Shown here: piece by piece, positions 7,339 to 12,862 of the stretch | Layout of the letters: each line of letters starts with the position of its first letter | Numbering within the stretch: the stretch's first letter is position 1 | DNA from: an uncultured Nitratifractor sp. | GTDB taxonomy: Bacteria; Campylobacterota; Campylobacteria; Campylobacterales; Sulfurovaceae | Assembly: GCA_947311565.1 (NCBI GenBank) | Contig: CAMZLH010000039.1 | Location: forward strand, 1-39,495 | Length of the DNA stretch: 39,495 bases | Direction of reading: 5' to 3' | Made by a program: the position numbers and the translations under genes | Notes under the pieces: generated by a model | Databases searched by the model: none | Told to the model about the DNA's origin: nothing | The model's input: the letters and a program-made list of their open reading frames with translations, nothing else

Positions 7339-8331
7339 ATGGTTAAAAAAATTCTACTCTCAACTGTTTTAGCAGTTTCTATGAGCACATCCGCAGCAGC
7401 GGCAGATTTTGTATTAAAATTTAGTCATGTTGTAAGCGAGAATACACCAAAAGGTAAAGCGGCTCTATTTTTTGAAAAACGTCTAGAGGAGCTGAGTAAG
7501 GGTAAAATTGATGTTCAAATATATCCTAATTCGCAGCTATATAAAGATAAAGCTGTCTTAAAAGCTATTAAATTAAACTCTGTTCAAATGGCTTGTCCAT
7601 CATTCTCTAAGTTTACAAAAACAGTTCCTCAATTAGCTATTTTTGATTTACCATTTTTGTTTAAAGATATGAACCATGTTCATAAAGTACAAGATGGTGA
7701 AGTTGGTCAAAAATTAAAAGATTTAGTATCTGCAAAAGGTTTTGTTGTATTAGATTATTGGGATAATGCATTTAAACAGTTAAGCTCTGCAAAAAAAGCT
7801 CTTTTAATGCCAGATGATGCAAAGGGACAAAAGTTTAGAATAATGAGTTCTAAGGTTTTAGAAGCACAGTTTAAAGCAGTAGGTGCAAATCCACAAGTTA
7901 TGCCATTTAGTGAAGTTTACTCTGCACTTCAACAAGGTGTAATTGATGGTCAAGAGAATACTAACTCAAATATCTATACTAAAAAGTTTTACGAAGTTCA
8001 AAAAGATATGACACTATCTAATCATGGATATTTGGGTTACTTAGTAGTAATGAGTAAAAAATTCTACGACTCTTTACCAAAAGATCTTCAAGAAGCAGTT
8101 AACACAGCAATTAAAGATGCAACAGCTAAAGAGCGTGAGTATGCAGCACAGCTAGATAAAGAGCAACTAGATAAGATTAAAGAGTATGCTAAGAAAAGTG
8201 GAAAGCTTACAATTCATGAATTAGATGACAAGCAAAAAGCTGCATGGAGAGCATCTATGGAAAAAATATATCCAGAGTTTTATGATAATGATAAAATTGG
8301 AAAAGATTTAATAGAAGCGGCGAAAAAGTAG
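7339..8331 (+). CDS. dctP: TRAP transporter substrate-binding protein, DctP family
   Basis: Periplasmic solute receptor of a tripartite (TRAP) uptake system, 330 residues. A signal peptide (residues 1-22) with a cut near SAAAAA|DF is clear. DctP hallmarks follow: FRIMSSKVLEAQFKAVGANP with R167, the arginine that in this family salt-bridges the substrate carboxylate, then FSEVYSALQQGVIDGQEN around 190-207. The ligand is therefore probably a C4-dicarboxylate or another organic acid, but the exact ligand is unknown. The ATG has AAAGGA upstream. The membrane subunits follow after a 156-base gap with two hairpins. Confidence 0.95.
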   Translation: MVKKILLSTVLAVSMSTSAAAADFVLKFSHVVSENTPKGKAALFFEKRLEELSKGKIDVQIYPNSQLYKDKAVLKAIKLNSVQMACPSFSKFTKTVPQLAIFDLPFLFKDMNHVHKVQDGEVGQKLKDLVSAKGFVVLDYWDNAFKQLSSAKKALLMPDDAKGQKFRIMSSKVLEAQFKAVGANPQVMPFSEVYSALQQGVIDGQENTNSNIYTKKFYEVQKDMTLSNHGYLGYLVVMSKKFYDSLPKDLQEAVNTAIKDATAKEREYAAQLDKEQLDKIKEYAKKSGKLTIHELDDKQKAAWRASMEKIYPEFYDNDKIGKDLIEAAKK

Positions 8332-8354
8332 CCACAATTAAGCTTATCATTTTG

Positions 8355-8376
8355 CTCCAAAGCCCCAGCTTTGGAG
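8355..8376 (+). promoter_or_regulatory. dctP-dctQ intergenic hairpin 1
   Basis: A perfect 9-base stem CTCCAAAGC (8355-8363) / GCTTTGGAG (8368-8376) with a 4-base CCCA loop, 23 bases after the dctP stop. It lacks a T-tract (TGTATATTG follows), so it looks more like an mRNA-stabilising or attenuating structure than a full terminator. Such a structure would allow more receptor than membrane subunit. Confidence 0.6.
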
Positions 8377-8406
8377 TGTATATTGATATATAAAGTCCTA
8401 TATGCA

Positions 8407-8428
8407 TTCCCAATGTGGATATTGGGAA
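8407..8428 (+). promoter_or_regulatory. dctP-dctQ intergenic hairpin 2
   Basis: A second perfect inverted repeat TTCCCAAT (8407-8414) / ATTGGGAA (8421-8428) with a 6-base loop, followed by an A-rich run. On the plus strand it has no T-tract. It could instead be an operator for a dimeric regulator. The stretch 8429-8475 holds further AAGCTT-rich repeats. Confidence 0.45.
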
Positions 8429-8487
8429 AAAGAAAAAAGCTTTGTGCTTTATGTATTTAGCTTAAAGCTTAAAAATTGGAGGTTTTT

Positions 8488-9048
8488 ATGAACTTTATAC
8501 TACATATTAGTAAAATAATCACTGCAGCTGGAATTGCGGGTGGAGTTGCTTTGGCATTTGTAAATGTTGTAGCTAGATATGCTTTTGAATCTTCTATTAG
8601 TTGGGCTAGTGAGCTTACTATATATCTATTTTTGTGGAGCACCTTTTTTGGGGCAGTTTACTGCTTTAAAAAAGATGCTCATATTGCTGTTGATGTTATA
8701 TTAATTAAAACACCACTTAAAGTTAGAAAAATATTAATGTTGTTATCTTTAGTAGTTGCACTAATATTTGTTAGTGCAATATCTTATTATGGATATGAGT
8801 ATGTTCTATTATATATAGATTTAGGTGAAGTCTCTGTAGATTTAGATATTCCTCTTTGGATACCTTATGTTGTTGTACCGGTATCTTTTGCATTTAGTGC
8901 AATTATTTTAACTCAAAAGGTAGTAGAGTTACTTAAGACTCCAAGTGATAAGATAGAGATAAAGTCAGAGGTAGATGAACTAATGCAAGAGATGGAGGTC
9001 GAAGCGATGATTAAAGAGATTAACAAGAAAACTGGAGGTATGCTATGA
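8488..9048 (+). CDS. dctQ: TRAP transporter small membrane subunit DctQ
   Basis: Inner-membrane small subunit of the TRAP transporter, 186 residues with four hydrophobic segments. The DctQ signature region is visible: NVVARYAFESSISWASELTIYLFLW, with ARY-F and the W-x-x-E pattern, then AHIAVDV. The ATG at 8488 sits five bases after GGAGG; a TTG at 8476 lies in front of that site and was rejected. The tail is acidic (VDELMQEMEVEAMIKEI). It overlaps dctM by four bases (ATGA), so the two are translationally coupled. Confidence 0.93.
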   Translation: MNFILHISKIITAAGIAGGVALAFVNVVARYAFESSISWASELTIYLFLWSTFFGAVYCFKKDAHIAVDVILIKTPLKVRKILMLLSLVVALIFVSAISYYGYEYVLLYIDLGEVSVDLDIPLWIPYVVVPVSFAFSAIILTQKVVELLKTPSDKIEIKSEVDELMQEMEVEAMIKEINKKTGGML

Positions 9049-10325
9049 GTATTGCACTTTTGTTTGGTCTCTTTTTTGGACTTTTAATTATTGGTTCGCC
9101 TATAGCTATTGCTCTTGGTGCTTCTACATTTTTAACTCTTGTTACAATGACTGCAACAAGCCCGGTAGAGATTGCAGGCATGATATATCAAAAGATAGAT
9201 AGCTACTCTTTAATGGCAATACCAATGTTTATATTAGCAGGAAATTTACTTTCAAAAGGTAGTAGTGCTTCTCGAATTATAGAGTTTGCTAAATCTCTTG
9301 TTGGACATCTGCCAGGTGGTTTACCTATGGCTGCTATTTTTGCAAGTATTATATTTGCAGCCGTTAGTGGTAGTTCACCAGCAACCGTTGTTGCTATTGG
9401 ATCTATTATGTTTGGAGCAATACAGAGTGCTGGGTATCCAAAGAGATATGCAATTGGAACGATTGCAACAGCAGGTAGTTTAGGTATTTTAATCCCACCA
9501 TCTATTGTTTTGATTGTATATGGAGTAACAGCTGAGGTTAGCATTGGTAAGCTATTTATGGCAGGTGTAATTCCAGGTATTATGATTGGTATTATGATGA
9601 TGCTAGTTACATATATTGGTGCTGTTAGACTAGGGTTTAAGAAAACCCAGCCAGAGCCGTGGAGTATTAGAGTAAAGAAGTTTTTTAATGCGACCTGGGC
9701 TTTAATGACAATTATAATAGTTATAGGTGGAATATATGGTGGCATATTTACTCCAACAGAGGCAGCAGCTGTAGCAGCAGTATGGGCATTTTTTGTATCT
9801 ATGTTTATATACAGAGATATTAAGTGGAAAGATCTATATGCTATTTTTTTAGATGCTGGAAAGACATCTGCAATGATTATGTTTATTATTGCAAATGCTA
9901 TGATTTTTGCACATTTTTTAACCTTAGAAAATGTCCCTCATATGATTACACAGACACTTATAGACGCACATGTAGGACCAATTATGTTTCTACTTTTTGT
10001 AAATATTCTACTCTTTTTTGCTGGTGATTTTATGGAACCTAGTGCAATTATAATGATTATGGTTCCTCTTCTTTTACCTGTTGCAACAACACTAGGAATA
10101 GACCCAATACACTTTGGTATAATTATTACAATAAATATGGAACTAGGTATGATCACACCACCAGTTGGGTTAAATCTATTTGTTACAAGTGGTATTACAG
10201 GTGTTAGCTTAAAAGATGTCGTAATATATGCTTTGCCTTGGGCTAGTGTGATTTTATTTGGACTTATACTTGTAACTTATATTCCTCAAATTTCTCTTTG
10301 GTTACCAAACTTAATGTTTGGTTAG
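9045..10325 (+). CDS. dctM: TRAP transporter large membrane subunit DctM
   Basis: The 426-residue channel subunit, which uses an ion gradient (normally sodium) to import the DctP-bound solute. It is almost entirely hydrophobic with 11-12 segments. Family motifs include IPMFILAGNLLSKG near residues 58-71, AAVSGSSPATVVAIG near 105-119, AGSLGILIPPSIVLIVYG near 143-160, and GMITPPVGLNLFVTSG near 368-383. The GTLIPPS/TPPVG-type pair forms the two re-entrant substrate regions in this family. Length is normal and the gene is intact. Together with dctP and dctQ it makes a complete transporter; no DctBDR-type regulator is in the window. Confidence 0.96.
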   Translation: MSIALLFGLFFGLLIIGSPIAIALGASTFLTLVTMTATSPVEIAGMIYQKIDSYSLMAIPMFILAGNLLSKGSSASRIIEFAKSLVGHLPGGLPMAAIFASIIFAAVSGSSPATVVAIGSIMFGAIQSAGYPKRYAIGTIATAGSLGILIPPSIVLIVYGVTAEVSIGKLFMAGVIPGIMIGIMMMLVTYIGAVRLGFKKTQPEPWSIRVKKFFNATWALMTIIIVIGGIYGGIFTPTEAAAVAAVWAFFVSMFIYRDIKWKDLYAIFLDAGKTSAMIMFIIANAMIFAHFLTLENVPHMITQTLIDAHVGPIMFLLFVNILLFFAGDFMEPSAIIMIMVPLLLPVATTLGIDPIHFGIIITINMELGMITPPVGLNLFVTSGITGVSLKDVVIYALPWASVILFGLILVTYIPQISLWLPNLMFG

Positions 10326-10500: not shown

Positions 10501-11022
10501 ATGAAAAAAGATTACTGGAATCCATACTTTGGTGGTGTAGTTTTGGGAACAATGCTATTTTTAACTTTTGCTATTGCATCGCAAGGGTTTGGAGCTAGTG
10601 GAACATTCTCTAGACTTACTGCAGAGTATTTAGTAAATTCAGATAAAAGTTGGCTCTCTAATGCCTATGTTGCGAGTTACTTTAAACACTCTGACTCTGC
10701 TCTAATGAATTGGACTGTTTTAGAGACAATTGGGATATTCTTTGGTGGATTTGCAAGTGCACTACTTGCAGAAAGATTAATGTTTAAAGCAGATAAAGCA
10801 AGAAGTTATCCTACTACTAAAAGACTATTTTGGGCATTTGTAGGTGGTGCTATTGTAGCATTTTCTACAAGATTTGCAAGAGGTTGTACAAGTGGACAAG
10901 GACTAGATGGAATGGCAACATTCTCTGTTGGTGCTTGGATATTTATGTTTACGACATTTGCTGCAGGTTTAATATTCTCTCCACTATTTAGAAATCAGTG
11001 GGTAGATAAGGAGGAGAAATAA
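10501..11022 (+). CDS. YeeE/YedE-family sulfur transporter, first half (PmpA-like)
   Basis: A 173-residue inner-membrane half-transporter of the YeeE/YedE family, which in characterised members imports thiosulfate or related sulfur compounds. It has about four hydrophobic segments. The family signature RGCTSGQG is at residues 127-134, and C129 is the only cysteine. A second typical motif, GFGASGTFSRL, occurs near residue 29 but lacks a cysteine. The ATG has a good AAAGGA. Its stop overlaps the next start by one base (TAATG). Substrate specificity cannot be read from the sequence. Confidence 0.9.
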   Translation: MKKDYWNPYFGGVVLGTMLFLTFAIASQGFGASGTFSRLTAEYLVNSDKSWLSNAYVASYFKHSDSALMNWTVLETIGIFFGGFASALLAERLMFKADKARSYPTTKRLFWAFVGGAIVAFSTRFARGCTSGQGLDGMATFSVGAWIFMFTTFAAGLIFSPLFRNQWVDKEEK

Positions 11023-11624
11023 TGGAAACTCTACTTTTACCACTATTTAAAAATGGCTTTCTAAGTCCAGAAGCAAACTTTTTCTTTGCTATATTAATGG
11101 GCTTTGTATTTGGTTTTGTCTTAGAGAGAACAGGTTTTACAAGAGCTCAATATATAGCAGATACATTCTATTTTAAAAACTTGGCAGTACCTAAGATTAT
11201 GGGTATAACTATAATTACGACAACAACTTGGTTTATTCTATTTGCTTATATGGGATGGATTGACTTAAATGCTCTATTTACACCAGGTACTTATGTATGG
11301 CCATATGTTATAGGTGGATTGCTATTTGGTCTTGGTATGGTAATGGCAGGATACTGCCCAGGAACAGCAGTTGCAGGTCTAGGGACAGGTAAAAGTGATG
11401 CTTTAGTATTCTTGCTTGGTGTAATTGGTGGAATGTTATTATACTTCTATCTTTACGATTTTGTTGCAGCATTTGCGAGTACAACAAAAGTTGGAACAGT
11501 TAAGTTGCAAGATCTATTTGGTGGAAACAACTATAGTTCATACATAATTACAATAATCTTAGAGGTAGGTATTATCTCTTTCTTAATGTTTTTACAAAAA
11601 TTATCAAATAATGGGAGAAATTAA
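11022..11624 (+). CDS. YeeE/YedE-family sulfur transporter, second half (PmpB-like)
   Basis: The partner half-transporter, 200 residues with about five hydrophobic segments. It has the motif GFVLERTGFTRAQYIAD near residues 31-46 and the signature MAGYCPGTAVAGLGTGK near 108-124, where C112 is its only cysteine. In full-length family members the two halves are fused and conserved cysteines relay the sulfur compound through the pore. Here the halves are separate and translationally coupled to each other and to the next small gene, whose start directly follows this stop. Read-out as a heterodimeric transporter is inference from the family. Confidence 0.9.
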   Translation: METLLLPLFKNGFLSPEANFFFAILMGFVFGFVLERTGFTRAQYIADTFYFKNLAVPKIMGITIITTTTWFILFAYMGWIDLNALFTPGTYVWPYVIGGLLFGLGMVMAGYCPGTAVAGLGTGKSDALVFLLGVIGGMLLYFYLYDFVAAFASTTKVGTVKLQDLFGGNNYSSYIITIILEVGIISFLMFLQKLSNNGRN

Positions 11625-12011
11625 ATGGCAAGTACAAGTAAAGTAGCCGTTGGCGGTGGAATAGCAATATTAATAGGTGGATTAGCTTTAGCATTTTTTA
11701 CAGCTAGTAGTGCTCCTGCACTAAAAGCAGCAAATGCAAAGGTAATTGCAAAATATAGTGCAATTGTAGATAAATCACTATCTAGTGGAGATCAAAAAGC
11801 AGCTTTAAAAGCAGCTAAATCTGCACTTGCTGTTGATGCAACAAATAAAGTAGCTTTAGAAGCATATAAAAAAGTTATTTTAGCAGATGCACCAAAAGCA
11901 GTAGCATCTGTAAAAGTAGAAACTAATACAGAGACAAAAAGTGCTACTCCTGCAGAAGCAGCGCCTGCTAAACCTAAAGCAGAAGAAGAGGAAGAGATGG
12001 GCTGTATCTAG
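11625..12011 (+). CDS. Small membrane-anchored protein with single C-terminal cysteine
   Basis: A 128-residue protein of unknown function. Residues 8-27 form one hydrophobic helix (VAVGGGIAILIGGLALAFF). Residues 30-92 are Ala/Lys-rich and suggest a TPR-like helical pair (GDQKAALKAAKSALAVDATN). A flexible Ala/Pro/Lys/Thr linker follows, then an acidic tail EEEEEMGCI. C127, next to the C-terminus, is its only cysteine. The gene begins immediately after the YeeE/YedE second half with no gap, so it is surely made with it. A membrane-tethered thiol on a swinging arm would fit a sulfur carrier or relay for this transporter, which is my inference. A hairpin follows the gene. Confidence 0.8.
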   Translation: MASTSKVAVGGGIAILIGGLALAFFTASSAPALKAANAKVIAKYSAIVDKSLSSGDQKAALKAAKSALAVDATNKVALEAYKKVILADAPKAVASVKVETNTETKSATPAEAAPAKPKAEEEEEMGCI

Positions 12012-12045: not shown

Positions 12046-12070
12046 AATTATCGGGTTAAGCCCGATAATT
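12046..12070 (+). terminator. Hairpin after the YeeE/YedE operon
   Basis: A perfect 10-base inverted repeat AATTATCGGG (12046-12055) / CCCGATAATT (12061-12070) with a 5-base loop, 34 bases after the stop. No T-run follows on the plus strand (AAAATCATAC), so termination would be inefficient or the stem may protect the 3' end. It lies before the Sel1 gene. Confidence 0.6.
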
Positions 12071-12103: not shown

Positions 12104-12862
12104 ATGAATAACTTTATAAAACTGACTCTCTTGACTCTGTTAATAAACGTACTTTACGCAACAAATTCCAATGTTAAAAAGGGAATTGAACTTTTTAATG
12201 AGAAAAAATTTCATAAATCTTTTAAAATTCTAACTCCTTATGCTAAAAATGGAGATAGAGAGGCAGAGTTTTTCATTGGATTAATTTATGATATGGGAAG
12301 TATCGATTTAATGGATAAAGAGAAGGCAGTTGAGTGGTATCTGAAGGCTGCTAAAAAAGGTTACCCTAGGGCTGAGTATGATATGGGCGTCATGCTTTCA
12401 AAAGGTGAAGGTATTAAAAAAAATCTAAAAGAGGCACTAATTTGGTATAAGAAAAGTGCAAATCATAGCGATAAAAATGCAATGTTTAATCTTGGAGTAG
12501 CTTATCAGAGAGCTTATGGTACTGAAAAAAATATTACTACAGCTAAAGAGTGGTATCAAAAGGCTATAGAGTTAGATATGCCAAAAGCAGCATATAATCT
12601 TGCAACTATTTATATAAAAGAGGGTAAAAAAGATAGAGCTATAAAACTCTATAAAAAAGCAGCACTTGGTGGACATACTGAAGCAATGTTTAATTTAGGA
12701 TATATATACCATGAGCAAAATAGTACAGAAGATGCTATAAAGTGGTATAAGGAGGCATCAATTAATGGACATAAAGATGCAAGAGCAAACTTATCTCATA
12801 TATTAGGTTCTATTGGAAAAAAAGATGAAGCTAGTTTTTGGAAAAGTAGAGTTAACTATTAA
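12104..12862 (+). CDS. Exported Sel1-repeat (TPR-like) protein
   Basis: 252 residues with an N-terminal signal sequence (MNNFIKLTLLTLLINVLYA). From residue 27 onward it is built of Sel1-like repeats of about 36 residues, ending in patterns such as A-x-x-WY-x-KAA-x-x-G and AEYDMGVMLSKGEG. At least five or six are visible (EKAVEWYLKAAKKG, KEALIWYKKSANHS, TTAKEWYQKAIEL, DRAIKLYKKAALGG, EDAIKWYKEASING). Such alpha-solenoids bind other proteins or glycans in the periplasm. In Campylobacterota, cysteine-rich Sel1 paralogues (Hcp) are beta-lactamase-like, but this one lacks their regular cysteine pairs. GAGGAAAGGATATT precedes the ATG. The role is unknown. Confidence 0.9.
   Translation: MNNFIKLTLLTLLINVLYATNSNVKKGIELFNEKKFHKSFKILTPYAKNGDREAEFFIGLIYDMGSIDLMDKEKAVEWYLKAAKKGYPRAEYDMGVMLSKGEGIKKNLKEALIWYKKSANHSDKNAMFNLGVAYQRAYGTEKNITTAKEWYQKAIELDMPKAAYNLATIYIKEGKKDRAIKLYKKAALGGHTEAMFNLGYIYHEQNSTEDAIKWYKEASINGHKDARANLSHILGSIGKKDEASFWKSRVNY

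Follow-up and report, generated by a model that had tools for sequence, protein, structure and literature searches.

Within a stretch of DNA of 39,495 nucleotides from an uncultured Nitratifractor sp. (the window, meaning the whole stretch), three tightly coupled genes, A, B and C, occupy positions 10501-12011. We read them, at roughly even odds, as a split YeeE/YedE-type importer (A and B) with a dedicated arm, C, that would deliver sulfane sulfur from the periplasm. Split pairs of this kind are already known, and what is new here is the combination with the proposed arm subunit. How sulfur is presented to SoxT is a proposed step that has been described as open for YeeE/SoxT-type importers (PMC11582611), and C would be a direct candidate for this hand-over from periplasm to importer. 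The preliminary description of this DNA knew of no such third component in YeeE/YedE systems, and the papers that we searched, all open access, likewise contain no description of such a partner or of the related operon reported below.

A split importer pair followed by a third gene

Gene A (10501-11022, + strand) encodes a 173-residue protein corresponding to the C-terminal half of a YeeE/YedE importer, and B (11022-11624, + strand) a 200-residue protein of the N-terminal type. Both match Pfam Sulf_transp (PF04143; cut-off 27 bits), A with 82.5 bits on profile positions 174-308 and B with 62.8 bits on positions 2-147, and on these profile matches they together make up a YeeE/YedE-type sulfur importer, one half each. 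The two reading frames share one base (TAATG), and the start codon of C (11625-12011, + strand; 128 aa) lies immediately 3' of the B stop. The coordinates and sequences first reported for this unit proved correct, as did the count of one cysteine in each of its proteins: C129 in A (motif RGCTSGQG; codon 10885-10887), C112 in B (GYCPGTA; codon 11355-11357) and C127 in C (tail EEEEEMGCI; codon 12003-12005). A promoter scan gave no promoter signal above that of shuffled sequences.

The fused importer StYeeE (TsuA) has three relay cysteines, C22, C91 and C293, of which C22 is on the cytoplasmic side (PMC11073785). B-C112 aligns with C91 in an alignment to 6leo and 8j4c, and A-C129 takes the position of C293, a correspondence reported for halves of the PmpA type (PMC11582611); both cysteines are invariant among their homologues. 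C22 has no equivalent: B has T40 at this place, and a cysteine is found there in no B homologue. The residues through which StYeeE contacts YeeD (R28, R98 and E101) are likewise replaced in B, by A46, G119 and T122. StYeeE with its partner YeeD (TsuB) resembles the trio in belonging to the Sulf_transp family, in having a relay of pore cysteines and in having a small partner with an active cysteine (PMC11073785). However, StYeeE is a single fused protein with three cysteines and YeeD is a cytoplasmic protein of the TusA fold, whereas the trio is split, is without C22 and the YeeD-contact residues, and has an anchored tetratricopeptide repeat (TPR) protein as its third member, and no TusA gene was found in its genome. 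The trio therefore has neither the three relay cysteines nor the YeeD/TusA partner of TsuA, and its best score against the NCBIfam TsuA models, which describe the fused protein, was 44.1 bits against cut-offs of 400 and 645 bits.

The known split pairs PmpAB and YedE1E2 are closer to A and B, in that each consists of two separate half-proteins, and the one conserved cysteine of each half matches StYeeE C91 or C293 in position (PMC11582611; PMC10812762); YedE1E2 imports zero-valent sulfur and requires both cysteines (PMC10812762). The trio differs from them in its longer halves (173 and 200 aa, compared with about 130) and in the third gene that always stands behind B, a partner not described for PmpAB or YedE1E2. 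In nine further split pairs from the taxonomic family of the window (L071-L079), too, both halves contain a cysteine, in most cases the sole one, and C adjoins none of them. The single cysteines of A and B are thus ordinary; it is C, with its relatives, that is of interest. A missing third cysteine was dropped as a peculiarity of the trio, since split pairs generally have one cysteine per half.

Architecture and conservation of C

C lies below every family cut-off in Pfam and NCBIfam, and neither collection gave a DsrC/TusE match. Residues 7-28 (11643-11708, + strand) form a hydrophobic N-terminal anchor by hydropathy, at the place where relatives have a signal peptide; residues 30-88 (11712-11888, + strand) form a TPR hairpin with a cap helix; residues 89-119 (11889-11981, + strand) are a variable linker, predicted to be disordered; and residues 120-128 (11982-12008, + strand) make up the acidic tail ending in MGCI. 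An AlphaFold model based on 22 sequences has one helix of modest confidence (5-28), three of good confidence (30-54, 57-70 and 75-88) and a disordered stretch from residue 92 to 124 (pLDDT < 50), which agrees with the earlier picture of a helical arm with a flexible tail. Profile comparison with TPR chains in the PDB identifies the helical part as one TPR hairpin plus a cap. Foldseek also returned TPR matches, with an rmsd near 1.3 Å over about 50 columns, none of which had an E-value below 0.3 for this short region, and individual C proteins lie below the Pfam TPR cut-offs where scores were given.

We searched 175 genomes of the window's taxonomic family and found the B subfamily (E < 1e-40) in 21. 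C directly follows B in all 19 genomes in which the region could be read, and the remaining two, G040 and G041, have contigs that stop at B. This count includes readings of the DNA in G020, G021 and G025, which placed C after B where a single-sequence search had missed it. Across the phylum (397 genomes), the eight genomes with B (E < 1e-30) are the same eight that have C (E < 1e-11), and two of these, G233 and G462, lie outside the family. Low-scoring matches to the C profile (L035, L037-L048), mostly pieces of longer open frames, were left out of the membership. An apparent 325-residue fusion in G035 is merely an open frame running into B, and the C gene of this genome has a possible ATG start of its own.

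Conservation of the terminal cysteine had been set beforehand as a test of the proposal, and its loss was seen in none of the 22 complete C homologues. Both G126 and C127 are invariant (22/22) down to about 20% identity, every protein ending in GC or GCI, and the mean column identity is 1.0 for these two residues compared with 0.42 for the linker, a degree of conservation in the aligned sequences that exceeds chance. The stretch that starts at residue 89 and runs to the cysteine is 22-59 residues long, depending on the homologue. Together, these observations support C as a real and dedicated partner of A and B. A lone cysteine is a feature of the window's protein but not of the family, as 16 of the 22 homologues carry extra cysteines at about residue 36 and/or residues 84-90, none of them conserved. 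An acidic run is frequent without being universal: two homologues have a basic end (KKKISIDLGC), so that the charge of the tail is not essential, a point that counts against the delivery arm.

These same features bear on the possibility that C, rather than carrying sulfur, serves as a subunit for assembly, scaffolding or redox sensing, in which case the TPR would hold partners and the terminal cysteine would form a regulatory disulfide or bind a metal. TPR hairpins usually bind proteins, an acidic tail with a cysteine could be a metal ligand, and the extra cysteines of the 16 homologues could pair with that of the tail. However, those cysteines are absent from the C protein of the window as well as unconserved, the basic tails and the neutral QFEGC tails of a related family argue against metal binding by acidic residues, and the neighbouring genes are those of sulfur transfer. 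We consider this explanation unlikely.

A sulfur-carrying role would make C comparable in operation to two known carriers. SoxY is a periplasmic sulfur carrier that forms SoxYZ and has a cysteine near its C-terminus, in a GGCGG tail. It is built from a different domain with a different motif; C ends in MGCI and does not match PF13501. DsrC carries sulfur solely on the penultimate cysteine of a flexible C-terminal arm (PMC3397948), and by analogy the position of the terminal cysteine and the disorder of the tail in C would fit such an arm, although DsrC has a different fold, is cytoplasmic and has no membrane anchor.

A related family and the side of the membrane

A profile search turned up, in six genomes from other families, a set of proteins of 110-125 aa that end in QFEGC (hereafter EGC proteins). 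Their homology to C spans the N-terminus and the TPR (hhalign probability 97.3%, E 2e-11); they have the same predicted fold with a disordered tail, and by inspection begin with an N-terminal signal peptide (e.g., SANA-EN or FGFA-EN). The EGC gene adjoins a gene for a PsrB/TtrB-like Fe-S subunit. The operons (L082, L083, L084, L111 and L112) also encode a molybdoenzyme resembling PhsA, a membrane subunit of the NrfD type and multihaem cytochromes like ExtM/ExtN; a Rieske protein and cytochrome b are usually present too, and most of the operons have a double rhodanese. G233 carries both such an operon and the A-B-C trio. The proposed linkage of C to the transporter genes therefore holds for C itself, which was not seen away from B, but not for its EGC relatives, whose operons contain no YeeE gene; this also weighs against a role restricted to the importer, and that of the tail may be more general.

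The EGC operon looks like a Geobacter ext cluster to which a thiosulfate or polysulfide reductase has been added. Like it, the ext cluster has a rhodanese, ExtM/ExtN-type cytochromes, a Rieske protein, cytochrome b and a small protein (PMC5877670). This small protein, ExtJ, has 104 residues and no assigned function (PMC5877670). Neither C nor the EGC proteins matched an Ext model in NCBIfam.

The side of the membrane on which the C tail lies had been called unclear from charge rules, and indeed the charges around the anchor are ambiguous and do not decide it. Most C proteins are without a clear cleavage site. A very short N-terminal tail with a lysine, as in C, is usual for anchors with the N-terminus inside. 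Because the EGC relatives and the neighbouring rhodaneses have signal peptides, and because C and the EGC proteins share gene company, the periplasmic side is the most likely one for the tail, which by the same evidence most likely acts ahead of A-C129, the first cysteine of the pore. The original idea that C127 supplies a missing third pore cysteine is accordingly unlikely: the third cysteine of StYeeE, C22, is on the cytoplasmic side (PMC11073785), where B has T40, and the EGC relatives point to the periplasm.

The main rival comes nearest to that idea and reverses the orientation of C, with its N-terminus outside and its tail in the cytoplasm, where it would replace YeeD/TusA and its cysteine would take sulfur from B-C112 as a third or fourth relay cysteine. 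It is favoured by the lack of any TusA match (PF01206) in the genome of the window, which is 99.99% complete, in a search that matched 11 of 14 control genomes; by the replacement in B of C22 and the YeeD contacts; and by charges around the anchor that are compatible with it. The signal peptides of the EGC proteins, the secretion of the neighbouring rhodaneses and cytochromes, and the short N-terminal tail of C all speak against it, and we give this orientation a low probability.

In the periplasmic delivery that we prefer, the N-terminal helix would hold C in the inner membrane with the remaining chain in the periplasm, and the TPR hairpin would probably dock either with A/B or with a sulfur donor, while the long disordered linker would let the terminal cysteine swing. 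C127 could receive sulfane sulfur from a periplasmic rhodanese, or else from Sox intermediates, and hold it as a persulfide, and the sulfur would then pass from C127 to A-C129, to B-C112 and to a cytoplasmic acceptor other than a TusA/YeeD protein. The position of C, its invariant GC(I) end, the predicted disorder of its tail, the EGC operon, the secreted rhodaneses and the sox neighbours would all be in keeping with such an arm. More tentatively, at somewhat below even odds, C and the EGC proteins could constitute a hitherto undescribed family of arms that carry sulfur in the periplasm, each a TPR hairpin with a disordered tail and terminal cysteine, that serve split YeeE importers and PhsA/PsrA-type molybdoenzymes as a periplasmic counterpart of DsrC. 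The presence of EGC relatives in the PhsA/PsrA-type operon suggests that this type of carrier is used by more than one enzyme.

Neighbouring genes and spread of the trio

A secreted rhodanese gene adjoins the trio in several genomes. In several members of the window's genus, the trio is followed by a rhodanese and multihaem cytochromes of the same kinds as in the EGC operon, and in G462 the trio and a rhodanese have apparent soxB, A, Z and Y genes as neighbours (L081). The genome of the window has no rhodanese gene beside the trio; it encodes a secreted single-cysteine rhodanese (G000:C58) of the type that precedes A in other genomes, and a SoxY match, ending in GGCGG, within a sox cluster away from the trio. 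A comparable arrangement is that of SoxT1A in Hyphomicrobium, a YeeE-like importer tied to sulfur oxidation and encoded adjacent to Hden_0679, a periplasmic thiol protein with a C-terminal cysteine motif (PMC11582611). Unlike the trio, the SoxT1A importer is fused, and Hden_0679 is a DsbA-like thioredoxin rather than a TPR arm.

The ExtM/ExtN-like cytochromes and ExtH-like rhodaneses that adjoin the trio in several genomes, and the EGC gene, could alternatively mean that the trio handles selenium or tellurium, as the Ext names come from selenite and tellurite reduction in Geobacter. The best NCBIfam match of A is also a selenium model, selen_YedE_FdhT, at 53.9 bits, far below its cut-off of 350. 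Neither A nor B reaches the selenium-family cut-offs, sox genes occur beside the trio in G462 and elsewhere in the genome of the window, and this genome gave no match to ExtM, in a search that matched no control either. We regard selenium or tellurium as an improbable substrate, and sulfur as the preferred one.

Metagenome-assembled genomes labelled Thiotrichaceae and Cyclobacteriaceae (L022 and L023) contain a secreted rhodanese gene followed by A-B-C. Because the other 62 genomes of the order of the Thiotrichaceae assembly have no full-length match, transfer out of Campylobacterota or mis-binning of contigs is possible. Homologues in other genera (g4 and g6) share about 75% identity with A and B, compared with about 55% and 45%, respectively, for those of the window's own genus, which suggests, from sequence identity, that the trio was horizontally transferred. 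A plasmid search returned distant B relatives only. The window also contains a transposase-like gene of an insertion element (829-1800, - strand) with what reads as an integrase-type catalytic region.

Genes for a TRAP-type transporter, comprising a solute-binding protein and small and large membrane subunits, lie directly upstream of the trio (7339-10325). Behind it, the window encodes a secreted Sel1-repeat protein (12104-12862), which is a possible fourth component; a similar gene stands beside the trio in G029 (L094), G049 (L070), L022 and L023, on the opposite strand in the last two. A hairpin of ten pairs (12046-12070) separates C from the Sel1 gene and has a terminator score on the minus strand only. 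A secreted DsrE-like protein and a small neighbour gene are found beside soxB in the genome of the window (L110 3450-4342), and G462 has a DsrE-like protein and a small gene between soxB and the trio (L081 8514-9925).
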